Origin: an uncultured Clostridia bacterium
GTDB taxonomy: Bacteria > Bacillota > Clostridia > Lachnospirales > Cellulosilyticaceae
Length of the DNA stretch: 64,000 bases
NCBI GenBank assembly: GCA_937981575.1
Contig: CALJNR010000026.1
Coordinates: 62,001 to 126,000, forward strand
Reading direction: 5' to 3'
Shown here: in pieces, positions 1,639 through 47,389 of the stretch
Layout: every line of letters starts with the position of its first letter
Numbering within the stretch: the first letter of the stretch is position 1
The notes under the pieces: generated by a model
Seen by the model: only the letters and a program-made list of their open reading frames with translations
The model's database searches: none
Told to the model about the DNA's origin: nothing
Program-made: the position numbers and the translations under genes

Positions 1639-1787
1639 CACTATTTTTATTTATTCGAGGTAATAATTCGGTTATCTGTTAAGGAAATAATATTTTTATT
1701 AGTTCATTATACTTTAAGCAATCCCCCCCCTACGCATATAAAATTGGCTCTTCTGCTTCCTGGCTGGCAAGACCTATTCCCTATCTC
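1639..1787. other. Intergenic stretch without recognisable gene
   Basis: No coding signal is seen here. The only notable item is a run of eight C at 1723-1730, unusual in such AT-rich DNA. Confidence 0.5.
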
Positions 1788-1821
1788 AAAAAAAAAAAAA
1801 AAACGTGCTAAAACGCACGTT
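1788..1821 (-). terminator. Second terminator downstream of tRNA-fMet, with 16-base A/T run
   Basis: AACGTGC/GCACGTT forms a 7-bp stem with a six-base loop, and on the minus strand runs into 14-16 T. It lies about 55 bases beyond the first terminator with no gene between them, so the two act as a tandem stop. Confidence 0.8.
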
Positions 1822-1874
1822 CAAATGAACTCATTAGGTGATATCTTATAGGTTAACTAATCTTTCAATCTCAT

Positions 1875-1906
1875 AAAAAAATCACTCAATACACTTTTGA
1901 GTGATT
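1875..1906 (-). terminator. Intrinsic terminator following tRNA-fMet
   Basis: The 10-bp inverted repeat AATCACTCAA/TTGAGTGATT is followed by seven T on the minus strand, starting 8 bases after the tRNA 3' end. Confidence 0.85.
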
Positions 1907-1913
1907 AAACAAA

Positions 1914-1987
<74 letters not shown>

Positions 1988-2028
1988 CTATTACTTTAAG
2001 TATATCATCAAATCTGTACATGTCAAGG

Positions 2029-2310
2029 CTACTTTTTTTCCCTAAAAACTATATCGTCTTTCTTAACCATACCCAATTCTTCTCTTGCTATCTTTTCAAT
2101 ATATTCCGGTGTATCCATTTTTGTGATTTCATTTTCTAATTTATTAAGTTGTTTTTTGCTGTCTTCTAGTTCTTTTCTATCTGCACCAATCTGTTCATCT
2201 ACTCTTTTTATGAGCCTGTTAAGTTGATAACCTTGTACACCAAACATCAAGAATATAAGAATGGTAATAATAAAGGTGACACGAAAAATTATCTTTTTTA
2301 GTTTTCTCAT
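2029..2310 (-). CDS. divIC: Septum formation initiator family protein (DivIC/FtsL type)
   Basis: Small bitopic membrane protein of the divisome. Residues about 5-27 form one transmembrane helix (VTFIITILIFLMFGV), followed by a coiled coil (LNRLIKRVDEQIGADRKELE) and the conserved tail PEYIEKIAREELGMVKKDD typical of DivIC. I prefer the ATG at 2310, preceded by GTGGGG, giving 93 residues; a longer frame to 2367 lacks a ribosome site. It ends the pth-to-divIC block, downstream of yabQ, the order also known from Bacillus. FtsL shares this architecture, but context favours DivIC. Confidence 0.85.
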   Translation of the reverse strand: MRKLKKIIFRVTFIITILIFLMFGVQGYQLNRLIKRVDEQIGADRKELEDSKKQLNKLENEITKMDTPEYIEKIAREELGMVKKDDIVFREKK

Positions 2311-2394
2311 TTGTATCCCCACTTTGAATCTTAAAATAAGCGTTCCCAAAAAATTACTTACTATCATCTTATCTAATTTATTATTATTTGTAAA

Positions 2395-2922
2395 TCATTT
2401 TTTGCTTTTCCTAATTTTAATTTCTGTGCGTATTTCAGCTTTTTTATGATACCACTTTCTTTTAATTTTTCTAAGTTTCCTTTTTTTATAATAGTTAACG
2501 ATGCTTAATTGATTATGTACATATTTCAATGGAATGCTTATAAGGACAACTACTTTCTTTATAGGAATAAGCATAAGGTGTATAAGCTGAGCAATAATTC
2601 TTTTAACATAATCAATAACGATTGTTGCAATTTTCATAAAAATTATACTAAAGCTTGCAAAGTAGAGAATCGCCCCGAGTAAGATCCCAATAAAAACAAA
2701 GGGTCTTATCGCTGCATAATTGCTTATATAAAGCATGTAAAATCCAACAAAAGCACATACAACCCAATAAAGAAAATCTTCTATCTGCACAAGAAAGTCA
2801 GGGTGCTTAATGATCTTCCTAAAAATTCTTATTAGATCAAAGAAGATACCCATTATAATACCAATTTGTGCACAAGTCATAAATAGCAGTGATTGACTGC
2901 TGACTATTTGATTCATAATCAT
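2395..2922 (-). CDS. yabQ: Spore cortex biosynthesis protein YabQ
   Basis: Polytopic membrane protein of 175 residues needed for spore cortex formation in Bacillus. Hydrophobic segments lie near residues 10-28, 45-65 and 72-95, with an amphipathic stretch around 105-135, then a basic tail rich in Lys and Arg (KKRKLRKIKRKW). This membrane-then-basic layout and the position between yabP and divIC identify it. The start is ATG at 2922 or the second ATG two codons in, which has better spacing from GGGG. It lies 8 bases after yabP and is probably translated from the same message during sporulation. Confidence 0.85.
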   Translation of the reverse strand: MIMNQIVSSQSLLFMTCAQIGIIMGIFFDLIRIFRKIIKHPDFLVQIEDFLYWVVCAFVGFYMLYISNYAAIRPFVFIGILLGAILYFASFSIIFMKIATIVIDYVKRIIAQLIHLMLIPIKKVVVLISIPLKYVHNQLSIVNYYKKRKLRKIKRKWYHKKAEIRTEIKIRKSKK

Positions 2923-2930
2923 TCCCCATC

Positions 2931-3221
2931 TTATTTAAATAGTTTTGATACAAAAGAGCCCTTTTTCTTCGTGGCCCCCTGTGTATCATGATAGGTTAGT
3001 TCTGTTACTGTTCCTTCTACAATCATATCACCGTCATCTATATTCATTTTTACAATATGCAAATCTTCTCCTTTTATCTCAATATAGCCTTCATTTGTCT
3101 CAAGTTCTATAACGTTCTCGTCAAATGAGAATACATCTGTAACTCCTGTTATAGATAATTTTTCACGATCTACGATATTTACAATATGTTTTCTTGTCAT
3201 CTTCTCTTCCACACCGCTCAT
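2931..3221 (-). CDS. yabP: Sporulation protein YabP
   Basis: Small cytoplasmic-side sporulation protein of the YabP/YqfC family. The body carries the pattern LSITGVTDVFSFDENVIEL..EGYIEIKGEDLHI, and the C terminus GSFVSKLFK closely matches the ending of Bacillus YabP. Homologues act with YabQ in cortex assembly in the mother cell. The start is uncertain: an ATG at 3221, a GTG three codons in and an ATG seven codons in all follow the AAAGGA/GGAAGAG purine stretches. It is upstream of yabQ by 8 bases. Confidence 0.88.
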   Translation of the reverse strand: MSGVEEKMTRKHIVNIVDREKLSITGVTDVFSFDENVIELETNEGYIEIKGEDLHIVKMNIDDGDMIVEGTVTELTYHDTQGATKKKGSFVSKLFK

Positions 3222-35680: not shown

Positions 35681-35699
35681 TTATCGCATATAAAAAGTA

Positions 35700-35783
35700 T
35701 AAGGCTGGCTTCCCTACGCTAGTATTAACTAACAGGTTCAAAGGGTCAGGTTTTAACCTTCTCAACCAAACGGTCCCCCCGCA
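35700..35783 (-). promoter_or_regulatory. TPP (THI-box) riboswitch
   Basis: The minus strand shows the conserved pieces in order: GCGGGGGGACC, TTGAGAAGG, CCTGACCCTTTGAACCTG, AATACTAGCGTAGGGAAGCC. These are the pyrimidine- and pyrophosphate-sensing helices of the TPP aptamer. It stands upstream of thiC-thiD. Confidence 0.95.
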
Positions 35784-35808
35784 ACACATAGATATTAAAC
35801 TAGTAATT

Positions 35809-41281: not shown

Positions 41282-42865
41282 TTATAGATTCTCACCATTA
41301 TTTTTGCTTTCCTGAACCGCCACTTCCTGCACAACTTTATTTAAAGCATTAATAAGTGCAATGGCACTGGCTCTTATAATATCTTTTTCTATTGCCTTTC
41401 CCTCAAAAAGATTATCTTCATACATAACCTGAATGCTTACCTTTCCCAGTCCTTCTTTCCCTCTAGAAATATTATGAATACGGTATTCAAGTAAAGAAAC
41501 TGGGAGGTCTGCTGCTTCCAAAATAGCCGAATAAAGTGCATCAATTGCTCCATATCCTTCTTTTGTTTTGCAGCTTATAGTCTCGCCTTTTTTGATTTTT
41601 ACCATCGCTGTTGGAATTTTGGTATTATAGATAACTTCAAAATCTATAAGTTCCCATAAATCTATGGCTTTTTCTCTTTGTACTCCGTTGTTAGTGTATT
41701 TGCTCATCAGCATCATGATATCGTAGTCATAAACTTCTTTTTTTTGGTCAGCCATTTCTAAAAAGTCTGTATAAACAGTTTCTTTTTGTTTTTCTTCAAT
41801 CTTGTAACCTAATTTTTGCGTAACATGTATAAATGCGTGGCGACCTGATCTCGCTGTGAGTACCAATTCCATAGGCGGTGCACCAACAGTTTCTGGCTCA
41901 ATGACCTCATAAACTTCTTTGGATTTTAAGAGCCCATCTTGATGAATGCCCGACGAGTGGGCAAAGGCATTTTCTCCTGTAATTGCTTTATTGACCTGCA
42001 CATCAATGCCCATAATGGCACTAACTACCTTGGATGTTGTATAGATTTCATTTGTTTTAACGCCGGTATATCCCCTATAGTAATCCGCATGCAATTGAAT
42101 CCCCATAACCACTTCTTCTAAAGAGGTATTGCCTGCTCTTTCACCTATTCCGTTAATCGTACACTCTACCTTGTCGGCACCATTTCTTACCGCAGCTAAA
42201 GTATTAGCTGTAGCAAGACCTGTATCATTATGGCAGTGTACACTTAGTAGAACGTTTGGGTTCAAATTCTTTAGTCTTTCATTAATACGGAAAATAAGAT
42301 GCCCAAACTCTTCTGGAACAGCAAACCCTACAGTATCTGGAATATTAATGATCGTTGCTCCCGCTTTTACAACAGCTTCTATTGTCTGCCACATATATTC
42401 AAAGCTTGATCTGCTTGCGTCTTCCAAAGAATACTGAACATTTGGCATAAGTCCTTTGGCATATTTAACTGCGTCTACGCCCATAGCTAAAACCTGTTCT
42501 GGCGCTTTGTTGAATTTCTTCTGAATATGAACACCTGAGGAGCCAAGCACGATATGAATCATTGGGGACTGGGCTTCCTTCAGACTTTCATAAATAGAAT
42601 CTATATCCCCTCTGACGGCTCTCCCTAGTGCTGTTACAGTAATATCTCTGCCTATTATCTTACTGATAGCCCTGACTGCTTCAAAGTCGCCTTTTGAAGA
42701 AGATGGAAAGCCTACTTCCATCATATCTACCTGGAGTCTGATGAGCTGACGTGCCACCTCCATCTTCTCTCCTAGGTTTAATTTTGCTCCAGGTACTTGT
42801 TCCCCATCTCTTAATGTGGTGTCTAAAACATAAATCTTTCTTTTGTTGTCTTTTACATCGTTCAT
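41282..42865 (-). CDS. leuA: 2-isopropylmalate synthase
   Basis: First step of leucine synthesis: acetyl-CoA + 2-oxoisovalerate. 527 residues: a TIM barrel with VLDTTLRDGEQVPGAKL, SVHCHNDTGLATAN (metal-binding HxH) and GIGERAGNTSLEEV, a linker, and a C-terminal LeuA allosteric domain (about 380-510) for leucine feedback. I chose ATG 42865, seven bases after AGGGAG; the TTG at 42883 would overlap that site. It stands alone with no leuBCD next to it, under its own T-box leader. Confidence 0.96.
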   Translation of the reverse strand: MNDVKDNKRKIYVLDTTLRDGEQVPGAKLNLGEKMEVARQLIRLQVDMMEVGFPSSSKGDFEAVRAISKIIGRDITVTALGRAVRGDIDSIYESLKEAQSPMIHIVLGSSGVHIQKKFNKAPEQVLAMGVDAVKYAKGLMPNVQYSLEDASRSSFEYMWQTIEAVVKAGATIINIPDTVGFAVPEEFGHLIFRINERLKNLNPNVLLSVHCHNDTGLATANTLAAVRNGADKVECTINGIGERAGNTSLEEVVMGIQLHADYYRGYTGVKTNEIYTTSKVVSAIMGIDVQVNKAITGENAFAHSSGIHQDGLLKSKEVYEVIEPETVGAPPMELVLTARSGRHAFIHVTQKLGYKIEEKQKETVYTDFLEMADQKKEVYDYDIMMLMSKYTNNGVQREKAIDLWELIDFEVIYNTKIPTAMVKIKKGETISCKTKEGYGAIDALYSAILEAADLPVSLLEYRIHNISRGKEGLGKVSIQVMYEDNLFEGKAIEKDIIRASAIALINALNKVVQEVAVQESKNNGENL

Positions 42866-42898
42866 ACAGTCACTCCCTTTCAATTTTTAAATGAAATA

Positions 42899-42940
42899 TA
42901 AAAAACCCCTTCATCTCCTTAAATTAAAGAGACGAAAGGG
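42899..42940 (-). terminator. T-box leader terminator of leuA
   Basis: The minus strand reads CCCTTTCGTCTC, an 11-base loop, GAGATGAAGGGG, then six T. This is the terminator half of the T-box switch. Confidence 0.9.
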
Positions 42941-43270
42941 AATTTTCGCGGTACCACTCTTTTTCACTCCATAGCGAAGTGCGCTTTTTCGATACTGATA
43001 AATAGGATAAGTGCTTTAGAAATAAAAAAACTCCTATCTCCAAAGAGACAGAAGTACATTCTGCTAAACCACTCTTGTATGCCATCATTGACTCTTGATA
43101 CAGGTACCCATATTCACCGATATCTAGCCATAGTAACGGTTGGCATCCGTCTAGGCCTACTTATTTCAGCCAGCAACTCCAAGGCGAGTTCATTATCTTC
43201 TAAATCCTGCTTCACACCATCCAGCAGGTCTCTGACATTTATAGGATAACTACTATTCCTTTTCTTAGTC
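42941..43270 (-). promoter_or_regulatory. T-box leader of leuA (tRNA-Leu sensing)
   Basis: The T-box sequence AGAGTGGTACCGCG lies at 42946-42959, next to the terminator, and can pair with uncharged tRNA acceptor ends and form the antiterminator. The 5' half holds the stem-I region, with GGTGTGAAGC and ATGAACTCGCC; the CTC triplet there is at the place where the specifier codon is expected, and CTC is Leu. The leader is about 415 bases long in total. Confidence 0.92.
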
Positions 43271-43304
43271 TTTAAATTGTATATTTGATTGATTAATGAG
43301 TTTG

Positions 43305-43352: not shown

Positions 43353-43616
43353 TTATATTCCTAGTATTTCATCTTTCCAATTCCACCACTTGAGTTTTTC
43401 TGGCTCATGATCCTTATTTTCAGCATAATACACTGCAAGCCTGAATACATAAAGCTGGCACCTATCAATATGACAGCCTTTCATATGCATTTCCCGTTCA
43501 TACATTTCTTCAGGACTTTCCCCTTTTAATGAATCAATAGTTGTATAGCCAAGACTGATTAACGATTGTTCTGTAGCTGCCCCTACTCCTGGAATTTTCC
43601 TAAACTCTGTTTTCAT
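43353..43616 (-). CDS. Cdd1-like helix-hairpin-helix protein
   Basis: 87-residue protein of the pathogenicity-locus Cdd1 family. It starts with the helix-hairpin-helix FRKIPGVGAATEQSLISLGYTTIDSLKGESPEEMYE, then CHIDRCQLYVFRLAVYYAEN and an aromatic tail KLKWWNWKD. The HhH suggests DNA binding, but no biochemical role is established for the family. AAGGTGAG precedes the ATG. It lies just upstream of the leuA promoter. Confidence 0.85.
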   Translation of the reverse strand: MKTEFRKIPGVGAATEQSLISLGYTTIDSLKGESPEEMYEREMHMKGCHIDRCQLYVFRLAVYYAENKDHEPEKLKWWNWKDEILGI

Positions 43617-43914: not shown

Positions 43915-44751
43915 TTAGGACATATTTCTCTTATACCATATGTTCATACTTTCAATACCACCAGCAATTTGTGTATTGTTATATAAGGTTCCTCCATAGA
44001 GATATCCCATACTTCTAAAAACAGCATTCATTGCATATGAACTTGCACGTGCTATTGTATAAAAGGTTTTCATTTGATCTCTATACATAACTTCTTCCAT
44101 GTTATAAAGAAGGTGTTTAGCCAGCTTGTGTCCTCTTGCTTTTGGCAAAATGGCAAAGTCTGTCATTTCAACATTCAGTTCTTTTTTATTGATTTCACAA
44201 GAAGATAGTCCTATAAGTTCTCCCCTATATTCTACTCCAAAATATTTAACATGAGTATTCATAGTTTCCTGAATATAGTTAGAGTCAAAAATAGGAAAAG
44301 GATAAGTTTCAAAAACTTTTTGATAAACTTTGGCCATATTTGGAGCATCTTCTTGATTCATTACCCTTATCGTAAACTCTTTTGAGAGCAGGGATATGAT
44401 TTGTATTTTTTTATTCTGCGCTGCCTTTAGTACATCATCGATCATTAATTGATCTTGTATTATTAACCTGTCTGTATCTAAATATTTACTTAAAAAATAG
44501 CACGTTTCCTCGCCTTGATAATATCCTGGTATTCTTCCTTCCTCTTTAAACCCATTTTGTAAGAACATCCAAACCGCACTTTTAGGTAATTTTGTAATGA
44601 TTTTAGAATATCCTCTGTTGCGTGCCAGTAAGTCCACGCAATTAATCATACGCTCTTCATCTTTTTCATCATAATGCATTAAATAGATCCTATTACTGTA
44701 TTTACCATGATGAATAATTGAATTTCCTAACTTTTCTACTTGATCCCACAT
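43915..44751 (-). CDS. ablB: Beta-lysine N6-acetyltransferase
   Basis: Acetylates beta-lysine to the osmolyte N-epsilon-acetyl-beta-lysine. 278 residues: an N-terminal region specific to AblB (IHHGKYSNRIYLMHYD, FKEEGRIPGYYQGEETCYFLSKYL) and a C-terminal GNAT domain with FAILPKARGHKLAKHLLYNME (acetyl-CoA loop) and YGGTLYNNTQIAGGIESMNIW. It follows ablA by nine bases; the ATG at 44751, after AGGTGAT, is a better start than the GTG at 44760. The two-gene ablAB unit is known from methanogens and some Firmicutes under salt stress. Confidence 0.9.
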   Translation of the reverse strand: MWDQVEKLGNSIIHHGKYSNRIYLMHYDEKDEERMINCVDLLARNRGYSKIITKLPKSAVWMFLQNGFKEEGRIPGYYQGEETCYFLSKYLDTDRLIIQDQLMIDDVLKAAQNKKIQIISLLSKEFTIRVMNQEDAPNMAKVYQKVFETYPFPIFDSNYIQETMNTHVKYFGVEYRGELIGLSSCEINKKELNVEMTDFAILPKARGHKLAKHLLYNMEEVMYRDQMKTFYTIARASSYAMNAVFRSMGYLYGGTLYNNTQIAGGIESMNIWYKRNMS

Positions 44752-44760
44752 TTTTATCAC

Positions 44761-46047
44761 CTACTCTGCTGGTTTTAATGTAATGGTTTCGTCATAATCA
44801 CATAGTAGCTTCTCAATACCAATAACTTGATTATTATCCCGTTTATCTAATTTAAGGTGCAAGTTGCATCGGTCACACTTTAAATCGCACTTAGTGTGCT
44901 CATAATTACAGGGCTCCTCATAAGTTGTGATAACCCCCTCGTAGTTCCTCAAAATAACCTTATTAGTGGACCAAGAGATAAGATAGTTTGGCATCACTGG
45001 AATCTTGCCTCCCCCTCCTGGTGCATCAATTACGTACGTAGGAATAGCAAATCCACTGGTATGTCCTCTTAAGCTCTCCATAATCTCAATGCCTTTACCA
45101 ATACATGTTCTAAAGTGTTCAAGCCCTTCAGATAAATCACACTGATAAATATAGTACGGTCTAATACGAAACTGAACAAGTTTTTGTACTAACTTTTTCA
45201 TAATTCTTGGACAGTCGTTGACATCAGCTAATAAAACAGATTGATTGCCTACTGGAATTCCTGCCCGCACCAATCGTTGAATTGCCGTTTTTGCTTCAGT
45301 TGTCAATTCTTTTGGATGGTTAAAATGCGTATTGATCCATAAATTATCGTATTTGCTTAGTTTTTCAGCTAGCTCCTTTGTAATACGAAAAGGAAGTACG
45401 ACAGGCGTTCTAGTCCCGATTCTCATAACTTCTACATGTTGAATTTCACTGATTTGATCTAAGATATCTATTAATCTTTCGTCAGGCAGCATAAAGGGAT
45501 CTCCTCCAGATAATAGTATATCTCTCACTTCTTTATGCTGCTTGATATATTTTATCCCTTCCTGGACTGCATCATAAGAAGGCATAAAATCTTTATCCCC
45601 AACTTTACGTTTTCGTGTACAGTGTCTACAATACATAGCACAAGAGTTACTAACATGGAATAATACTCTGTCTGGATAGCGATGAGTAATACCAGGAGCC
45701 GGACTATCATGTTCTTCTGCTAGTGGGTCTACCATATCTGCCGGTGATATTTCCAGTTCCCTAACATCTGGAAAAGCCTGTTTAAATACAGGATCATTTT
45801 CATAATCCCCAGAATCAACTAAAGAAAGATAGTAGGGTGTAATAGTCATTGGAAACTTATCTAATGTTAACTGCAGTATCTTCTTCTTTTTTTCATCAAA
45901 AGTTATATTTAATATTTGTTCGATTTCCTCGACAGTTTTTATCGTATTGGCAAGCTGCCATCTCCAATCCTCCCAGTAATGATACCCCGCGGTGTTCTTA
46001 TTTTGTCGTCCTTCCCTAAAATACAGCAGTTCCATAGTTTTTAACAT
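44761..46047 (-). CDS. ablA: Lysine 2,3-aminomutase
   Basis: Radical-SAM, PLP-dependent enzyme that converts L-lysine to beta-lysine. 428 residues. The cluster motif is [14 protein letters not shown] (CxxxCxxC); [10 protein letters not shown] is the SAM-binding GGD region; and the PLP lysine lies in [16 protein letters not shown] zinc-type cysteine group ([15 protein letters not shown]) is near the C terminus, as in clostridial enzymes. AAGGAGG precedes the ATG. Because ablB follows, osmolyte synthesis is more likely than lysine fermentation; no kamDE genes are present. Expression is likely controlled by the leader and terminator at 46103-46370. Confidence 0.95.
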
Positions 46048-46102: not shown

Positions 46103-46146
46103 AAAAAAAAGCACTCTAACTCTATTTGCATAGAGTTAGAGTGCTT
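46103..46146 (-). terminator. Leader terminator upstream of ablA
   Basis: A 17-bp perfect stem (AAGCACTCTAACTCTAT and complement, loop TTGC) is followed by eight T on the minus strand. It ends about 56 bases before the ablA ATG and so must be read through for expression. Confidence 0.9.
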
Positions 46147-46365
46147 AAACTTCGCATACTGCTCGTTTTATACCACTAAAACATAGTATAGTTCATGACC
46201 GTTTGATCCTAAACAAGCCCCAGTTCTAAAATTAATTTTTCAAAATAGTTTTCGCTCTTATGAAAGCCTTACTTAACTCCACATCTCCAAGATACGTAGC
46301 TAAGCTCGAAATTCAGCTAATCACCATTTCTACTTCATTATTTTATATACTTGGAATAAATCTAA
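46147..46365 (-). promoter_or_regulatory. Long structured leader of ablA, attenuator candidate
   Basis: About 220 bases between promoter and terminator with no ORF. On the minus strand it can form TAGCTGA/TTAGCTA (with a nine-base loop), ATCT/AGAT, GTTT/AAAC, and just before the terminator the nested pair ATACT-GTTTTA / TAAAAC-AGTAT (46156-46189). I find no match to lysine, TPP, SAM, glycine, T-box, M-box or c-di-AMP aptamer sequences. Confidence 0.6.
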
Positions 46366-46370
46366 TACCT

Positions 46371-46400
46371 ATTATAGTATACTTTTGACATTTTGTCAAA
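46371..46400 (-). promoter_or_regulatory. Promoter of ablAB with overlapping palindrome
   Basis: Consensus TTGACA, 17 bases, TATAAT on the minus strand. The -35 is embedded in TTTGACATTTTGTCAAA (46384-46400), a 7-3-7 inverted repeat that could be an operator. Confidence 0.8.
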
Positions 46401-46449: not shown

Positions 46450-47334
46450 TTAGGCGATAGGATAAAATATTTCCATCTCACAGTAATTCTTATCACAATC
46501 CTTTAAATTAACCCGCTCAAAATGAAAATCATACTTAGGAGTTAACGTTGCATCTGAAAACCATTTGTTGGTAATATATTGATAAATAGATAAAATCTTT
46601 TCATAATCAAGTTCAAAAGCGCTGTGAAAGCCTATATATTTAAAAACAGCATACTGATGTGAATGAATTGTATAATATCTTATACCTTCTAGTACCTCTG
46701 ATTCTTCGTGAACTTCTGTCCCTGTAATATAGTAATTGTATACTTCGCTGTCTTCAGAATACTTTACAAGGCCAATGTAAAGGTCTTTATCTATCACTCC
46801 TGGAATCCTCTGCATGTGATGATGATAAAAATCTATAGCCAACTGACTGGCTAAGGCCTCCTTTAAATTAACCGTATGATAGATCTTATTTTCTATACCT
46901 GCCACCCAAAACCTTGGCTTGATCTTAAACTGGGGCTGAATAATAATGGCTTCATTAAATGGATGTAAGGTATCAGGATTTAATTTCGGTGTAATGGTAA
47001 GTTCATGTTTATTTCTTCGATAGTCTGAAGGGCTTATCCCAAAATGCTGTTTAAAAGCTCTGCTATATCCCTGCTCATATCTAAAGCCATATTCTAGTGC
47101 AATGTCTATTACTTTATATTCTGTCCTTAAAAGATCCTGCAGACTGCATGTCAATCTCCGGCCTTTAACATACTGTATCAATGATTTTGAGGTCAATCCC
47201 TTAAAAACTCTATCCAAATGAAATTTTGATACCCCCACTTCTTTTGAAAGCGTATTTAAAGAAACATCTTGTTTAATAGACGCTTCTATATAATTGATAA
47301 TTTGAGTAATAATTTCTTTATAGTTTGTCTGCAT
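46450..47334 (-). CDS. AraC-family regulator with GyrI-like effector domain
   Basis: The N terminus (about 10-110) has two helix-turn-helices: VSLNTLSKEVGVSKFHLDRVFK and YKVIDIALEYGFRYEQGYSRAFKQHFGISPSDYR. Residues 135-294 form a GyrI-like/AraC effector-binding domain (ends CEMEIFYPI). This plan, as in Rob/SoxS-like and BltR-like relatives, senses hydrophobic compounds. The ATG at 47334 follows GGGGGA; the TTG at 47349 is less likely. It lies directly upstream of ablAB on the same strand, but no evidence ties it to that operon. Confidence 0.85.
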   Translation of the reverse strand: MQTNYKEIITQIINYIEASIKQDVSLNTLSKEVGVSKFHLDRVFKGLTSKSLIQYVKGRRLTCSLQDLLRTEYKVIDIALEYGFRYEQGYSRAFKQHFGISPSDYRRNKHELTITPKLNPDTLHPFNEAIIIQPQFKIKPRFWVAGIENKIYHTVNLKEALASQLAIDFYHHHMQRIPGVIDKDLYIGLVKYSEDSEVYNYYITGTEVHEESEVLEGIRYYTIHSHQYAVFKYIGFHSAFELDYEKILSIYQYITNKWFSDATLTPKYDFHFERVNLKDCDKNYCEMEIFYPIA

Positions 47335-47389
47335 AAATCCCCCAAACAAATATTCTTAGCAAGAATTAGTAAGTAAACACTTATTAGAA

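Follow-up and report, generated by a model that had tools for sequence, protein, structure and literature searches.

The ablA-ablB operon found in the window (the whole 64,000-nucleotide stretch of DNA analysed here, from an uncultured Clostridia bacterium) is preceded by a long leader, and the question raised by this locus is what kind of RNA that leader is and to what it responds. The identities assigned to the two genes by a first-pass annotation were upheld by curated models: ablA (44761-46047, on the minus strand, as are all of the leader features described below) matches TIGR03820, lysine 2,3-aminomutase, at 705.8 bits (cut-off 525.4), and ablB (43915-44760, minus strand) matches TIGR03827, beta-lysine N-acetyltransferase, at 337.9 bits (cut-off 205.1). 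The consensus promoter reported there was also found, at 46371-46399, as TTGACA-17-TATAAT with 12 of 12 consensus matches. With a transcription start probably located near 46364, the leader would be approximately 317 nt long, ending at the ablA ATG (46047), in agreement with the figure of about 320 bases given earlier.

Several other features surround the operon. A gene encoding an AraC-type regulator (46450-47349) is situated upstream of the ablA promoter, on the same minus strand as the leader. Just after ablB is a gene for a small helix-hairpin-helix protein (43353-43616, minus strand; Pfam Cdd1, 'Pathogenicity locus', 87.2 bits). A T-box leader (42925-43275, minus strand; 135.9 bits) lies ahead of leuA (41282-42883), and is thus a second terminator-controlled leader near the ablAB operon. 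The window also contains a TPP riboswitch (35692-35790, minus strand; 60.0 bits, gathering threshold 54.3).

At its downstream end the ablA leader contains an intrinsic terminator (46103-46146) composed of a hairpin (46146-46109) and a U tract. The hairpin has 17 pairs, and one such terminator-like structure was found where 0.2 would be expected from shuffled sequences. It had been described as a 17-bp hairpin with eight T residues, 56 bases before the start codon; both the hairpin and the T residues are present, but two of the eight lie within the stem, and the distance measured from the end of the terminator to the ATG is 55 nt. The leader and terminator together fold better than 200 of 200 shuffled sequences (z = -5.0). 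For the leader without its terminator z is only -1.5, and 16 of 200 shuffles fold equally well. As the terminator-free leader folds hardly beyond its shuffles, the case for structure rests on covariation and not on energy.

No family was detected in the ablA leader when the window was scanned with Rfam at gathering thresholds, nor did the same thresholds reveal anything within the element described below at 40 loci that carry it. When the leader was searched at E values of up to 10, only stray matches to the terminator were obtained, and the lysine riboswitch family (RF00168) was absent among all of these matches. The models for the Na+-I riboswitch (RF03071) and the c-di-AMP riboswitch (RF00379) gave no match in the leader at E≤10 and none in the genome from which the window derives, and the T-box model (RF00230) matches 42925-43275, not the ablA leader. 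The assertion that no element of the lysine, c-di-AMP, glycine, SAM, TPP or T-box classes is recognisable here therefore survives the Rfam scan proposed as a check on it.

A nucleotide search found the leader in 19 of 146 related genomes, with several of the matches situated far from ablA. Full-length copies were aligned with MAFFT and checked by eye. The initial alignment, A1, omitted L122, L126 and L125 (the last of which contains N) and so held 15 of the 18 copies known at that time; the covariance model R1 was constructed from those 15. The R1 match in the window defines a conserved element of approximately 236 nt at 46103-46338, in which positions 1-236 correspond to window coordinates as 46339 minus the position. 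Its score of 239.5 bits is high by construction, the window sequence being part of R1. Sixty-nine other copies were aligned in A2 and 32 in A4. A2 has 72 rows, including two antisense terminator fragments and the terminator-less L175; all 72 rows were used in the overall and linker-arm pair counts, 70 in the counts of motifs, P0 and free-energy partners, and 69 in the folding and register tests of the linker-arm helix.

It is apparent from these alignments that the element is a conserved, structured RNA with covarying helices, as would be expected of a riboswitch. In A1 (15 sequences, 69 drawn pairs), 92.0% of cells form standard pairs, as against 80.2% in shuffles, and 41 pairs have changed on both sides, as against 24.1; the covariation score of 0.425 (0.207 in shuffles) was reached in none of 500 shuffles and is far above that of every slid version, results that are favoured by the drawn structure having been based partly on the same 15 sequences. 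In A2, 92.4% of cells are paired. In A4, whose 32 later copies were not used to build R1, yet were aligned to it, 90.4% of cells are paired and 54 of the 69 pairs have changed on both sides. The several short helices that had been noticed in the leader thus belong to a structure that covaries, and the comparison of leaders among relatives, which might have revealed a lack of conservation, revealed the opposite.

The 5′ portion of the element is a long hairpin, referred to here as the 5′ arm, comprising in order P0, an AGUA/GAA motif, P1, a second AGUA/GAA motif, P2, P3 and P4. It is followed by the linker UAGAACUGGGG, then P5, P6, P7 and the terminator. P0, the two pairs that close the 5′ arm (46338-46339 with 46235-46234), falls outside the R1 columns. 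Its first pair is present in 64 of 70 rows and its second in 61, the shuffle means being 49.8 and 30.2, respectively. P0 covaries in Bacillota; in the Fusobacteriota rows the first pair is present in 26 of 29 and the second, which is not kept, in only 9 of 29. Outside P1, AGUA (46331-46334; 63 of 70 rows) is opposite GAA (46241-46239; 69 of 70 rows). All eight pairs of P1 itself (46323-46330 with 46249-46242) have changed on both sides. Between P1 and P2, the inner AGUA (46318-46321; 62 of 70 rows), which reads AUUA in the window copy, is opposite a second GAA (46253-46251; 51 of 70 rows). The facing AGUA and GAA segments resemble a loop E motif and may adopt its geometry.

The P2-P3-P4 arm (46254-46317) covaries, and is shortened or absent in some copies, for example L122 and L153, natural variants that are without much of the 5′ arm. 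Its helices are P2a (46317-46315 with 46256-46254), P3 (46305-46298 with 46278-46271) and P4 (46296-46291 with 46285-46280). Three hairpins are situated between the linker and the terminator. P5 (46191-46214) has 96.7% of its cells paired and six of nine pairs changed on both sides; P6 (46169-46190) has 98.8% paired and five of seven changed on both sides; and P7 (46147-46168), which contains a conserved GA/GAA internal loop, has two helices with 94.7% and 90.1% of cells paired. P7 corresponds to the nested hairpin previously seen adjoining the terminator. The terminator hairpin has 94.9% of its cells paired in A2. In 13 of 70 rows, however, the last nine positions contain four U residues or fewer, which counts against a terminator-based switch. 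One degenerate copy, L213 (2987-3113, minus strand), situated before an aminomutase gene, is without P5, P6 and P7 and retains P1, the linker and the terminator arm; this deletion variant is possibly constitutive.

Almost no variation is seen in CACUCUAACUCU, the terminator's 5′ arm, whereas the 3′ arm drifts by means of G-U pairs and mismatches, a pattern which suggests that the 5′ arm has a second partner. The linker UAGAACUGGGG (46218-46228) is the candidate for that partner, as the 5′ strand of an antiterminator whose 3′ strand lies within CACUCUAACUCU at 46131-46141. Of 181 upstream registers compared with the terminator 5′ arm, that of the linker was the best both in pairing (78.7%, the next being 59.4%) and in redundancy-weighted covariation (0.064, the next being 0.044). 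In the 72-row count 85.5% of the linker-arm cells are paired, and 39 cells have changed on both sides, as against 17.4 in shuffled alignments. Two of the five measures do not exceed the shuffles: as many doubly changed pairs arose in 30 of 500 shuffles, and as many pair types in 350 of 500. The covariation lies in the outer pairs, the inner UGGGG pairs barely varying, and in the Fusobacteriota rows the linker and arm are nearly unvarying, so that those rows add conservation and no covariation.

Predicted folding of transcripts ending after the terminator 5′ arm gave a mean linker-arm pairing of 0.25, compared with 0.18 for a shuffled linker; the real linker was above the shuffled one in 38 of 69 rows, and the antiterminator probability exceeded 0.5 in eight of 69. 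No single region is the best free-energy partner of the arm in all rows; the linker region takes that place most often, its core positions being covered in 27 of 70 rows. Thus, the linker-arm helix is predicted to be weak on its own in thermodynamic folding. A weak predicted helix would fit a need for a protein, for tertiary contacts or for a bound ligand, but does not constitute evidence for any of them. When formed, the helix would close a junction that encloses P5, P6 and P7, and would exclude the terminator. Since linker-arm pairing takes up the 5′ arm of the terminator in this way, the switch is presumably an ON switch. Regulation by transcription termination is, as a proposal, well supported by the terminator, which is present in nearly all rows, and by the conserved alternative pairing, even though that pairing is weak in predicted folding. 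The leader had been put forward as an orphan attenuator; its lack of an Rfam class, its conservation in relatives, its covarying helices, its terminator and a conserved alternative pairing of the terminator 5′ arm all bear out that description.

The element is not restricted to close relatives of the source organism. Among 392 genomes of the order, R1 matched at least 27 (E≤0.01); in the class it matched at least 15 of 391 and in the phylum, Bacillota, at least 28 of 348 (both at E≤1e-4), the genome of origin, in which these samples overlap, being included in each. The counts are lower bounds, as each genome contributed between 5 and 106 first-look candidates for scoring, and no more than 22 in the large samples. 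Two of the 27 matches from the order and two of the 28 from the phylum were weak and were dropped; these (G020 and G320, loci L158 and L157; G787, L206; G796, L207) are antisense and consist of the terminator alone. In a Fusobacteriota-centred sample, taken around a Cetobacterium genome, at least 17 of 98 genomes carry the element, in up to four copies each. The sole plasmid on which it was found is pILYOP01 of Ilyobacter polytropus DSM 2926 (Fusobacteriota), where one copy precedes a BCCT transporter gene, and a search of phages yielded no copy. Of 30 named genomes or records behind the loci, three match the element. It was not found at 54 ablA loci outside the copy set, the 58 sources searched giving matches only to L122, L126 and, weakly, L128.

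The genes downstream of the element were examined for 102 copies, L174, L211, L212, L213, L214, L217 and L230/L231 being excluded as degenerate or cut (for L230/L231 the stretch read contained no usable downstream gene). The longest frame starting within 600-700 nt was counted as the neighbour, by which a short first gene could be missed. On this basis the first substantial gene is ablA in 31 cases, a BCCT transporter gene in 25, a polar amino-acid ABC binding protein gene in 22, an Opu-type ATPase gene in 11, an amino-acid permease gene in six (two assigned by Pfam, the others by a shared N-terminus), ablB in two and an OpuAC binding protein gene in one; the ectoine protein EhuB follows one of the 102 copies (287.1 bits, cut-off 190.9). 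In all, 99 of the 102 copies precede compatible-solute-type genes or amino-acid transporters, and the remainder comprise two gene remnants and one PALP-GNAT fusion. The element therefore occupies, as riboswitches do, the 5′ leaders of functionally related genes, and osmotic protection is what these neighbours, with their different substrates, share. The amino-acid transporters may belong to an osmolyte regulon, to judge from the other genes with which they are grouped. Among the 102 neighbours there was no gene for a K+ or Na+ pump. It is apparent that the element is not specific to ablA-ablB but probably serves a wider osmolyte regulon in two phyla.

Some individual loci are of interest in their own right. 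In L171 the element (1501-1726) precedes a gene (1744-3099) for a threonine-synthase-like PALP enzyme fused to a GNAT acetyltransferase, and to judge from its domains this protein may possibly make an unknown acetylated osmolyte. In L245 (1501-1870) it precedes the broken start of an opuC-like gene, followed by ddl, and in L150 and L219 (2680-3050) it precedes an aminomutase relic. The degenerate extra copies stand before ablB (L212, L214 and L217), an aminomutase gene (L213) and a DUF5698 gene (L211). The last of these is a diverged copy (1514-1711; 84.4 bits) ahead of a gene (1774-2400) for a DUF5698/DUF2179 membrane protein, possibly a new osmotic-stress protein.

The composition of the regulon bears directly upon the nature of the signal. 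A riboswitch giving feedback from a single compound (lysine, beta-lysine, N-acetyl-beta-lysine or else glycine betaine) might be suspected, as AblA uses lysine and no other single gene follows the element more often than ablA (31 of 102); this is improbable, however, because the element precedes genes for chemically different solutes, standing also before those for BCCT, Opu, ectoine and amino-acid transport, which are not known to have a substrate in common, and because no Rfam riboswitch matched the leader at E values of up to 10. Lysine, beta-lysine, an ion or a nucleotide second messenger had been proposed as signals; the first two are unlikely given so wide a regulon, but an ion, ionic strength or a messenger is still plausible. 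Given that one RNA precedes genes that make or import N-acetyl-beta-lysine, betaines, ectoine and amino acids, the most likely signal is a cue common to osmotic stress in general, such as K+, ionic strength, Na+ or a messenger. Attenuation by a leader peptide or a T-box, in which termination would be decided by a short translated frame or a bound tRNA, is very improbable. In 43 of 70 rows the element opens with an NUG and has a stop as its third codon, the codon between them being mostly AAG, but in the other 27 the frame is open past the stop point or is without a start, and the leader in the window has no lysine-rich frame in any of its three frames; a leader peptide was set aside because the NUG-AAG-stop start is not conserved. 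In the window copy this start (46338-46330; A2 columns 1-9) reads Met-Lys-stop and coincides with the AGUA motif, a curious sequence before a lysine-using gene, though not conserved as a frame. The element does share with T-boxes a large leader, a choice between terminator and antiterminator and AGUA-type motifs such as those in its 5′ arm, but RF00230 finds the leuA T-box in the window and not the ablA leader.

Protein-dependent antitermination, in which an osmotic-responsive RNA-binding protein would recognise the loop-E-like arm or the junction, would account for the weakness of the unaided antiterminator in folding predictions, and a protein might bind at the conserved single-stranded motifs. 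Nevertheless, large size, many conserved helices and a junction closed by a switching helix are the look of riboswitch aptamers, which this element resembles, and we regard a protein reader as unlikely. A far-diverged Na+-I or c-di-AMP riboswitch also merits consideration, since in PMC9337991 the Na+-I riboswitch, once in tandem with a c-di-AMP riboswitch, is described as controlling lysine 2,3-aminomutase genes, and a signal could be shared with either. Neither model matched the leader at E values of up to 10 or, in the Rfam scan, the element at the 40 carrier loci; the models differ from it in size (55 and 134 positions); and RF03071 and RF00379 occur in one and 19, respectively, of 40 carrier genomes, always elsewhere. 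Such an origin is accordingly improbable. The background frequency of RF03071 in the class is nine of 196 genomes, and mutual exclusion of the element with Na+-I, which was considered, was rejected, the difference from one of 40 being too small. Sensing of a general cue would probably be direct, by the RNA itself. A more specific version, in which the RNA would be an osmosensor of cytoplasmic K+ or ionic strength, rising salt stabilising the linker-arm junction and switching on all of the compatible-solute systems that bear the element in both phyla, is put forward tentatively; no potassium riboswitch was found in the literature searched.

Among known systems, the Na+-I riboswitch (DUF1646 motif; PMC9337991) resembles the element in being a leader RNA with an intrinsic terminator, in being an ON switch (as the element would be) and in its position before ablA and other osmotic-stress genes; it differs in that it also controls ion pumps and ATPases, none of which was seen among the 102 neighbours. 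The c-di-AMP riboswitch (ydaO) is likewise associated with osmotic-stress genes, but is described in PMC9337991 as an OFF switch, in contrast to the ON switch proposed here. In a genome of the same genus as the window (G002), a c-di-AMP riboswitch (C7:25939-26089) is situated just upstream of an aminomutase paralogue (C7:24673-25731), and the new element precedes ablA itself and an operon for an amino-acid transporter. This division, together with the known control of aminomutase genes by Na+-I and c-di-AMP riboswitches, suggests that the element probably fulfils the role of those riboswitches by means of another fold, or else responds to another facet of osmotic stress. The opuB motif of Enterobacteriaceae (PMC11109978) and the proX motif of Spiribacter (PMC8632094) are also riboswitch candidates before osmolyte-transport genes, but are described as acting at the ribosome-binding site and not through a terminator. 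No description of the element was found in the literature searched, a search whose reach ended short of the 2017 collection of 224 candidate RNAs, supplements and closed journals.

Taken together, these data indicate that the element is a real, widespread and apparently undescribed class of cis-regulatory RNA of the compatible-solute regulon. It is reasonably probable, in our judgement, that the ablA leader is a member of such an unnamed class, in which a choice between terminator and antiterminator is governed by a general osmotic cue sensed by the RNA itself. According to this proposal the 5′ arm, with P0-P4 and its two loop-E-like motifs, would adjoin a four-way junction closed by the linker-arm helix, and the junction of P5, P6 and P7 would be the sensor. 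The signal would stabilise the linker-arm helix, so that termination would not occur; without the signal, the stronger terminator hairpin would win. The variants lacking P5-P7 (L213) or much of the 5′ arm (L122 and L153) leave some doubt over which part senses.

Few RNA sensors are known for osmotic stress, and the route from osmotic stress to gene expression is only partly understood. Because this large, highly conserved class numbers more than 100 copies and has both a clear regulon and a defined terminator/antiterminator switch, the question of sensing is directly testable. Were the signal K+ or ionic strength, the element would represent a novel type of sensor; were it Na+ or c-di-AMP, a task already known would have been solved by a novel structure. 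In either case, its recognition would annotate the regulation of ablAB and of genes for betaine, ectoine and amino-acid uptake in many anaerobes.
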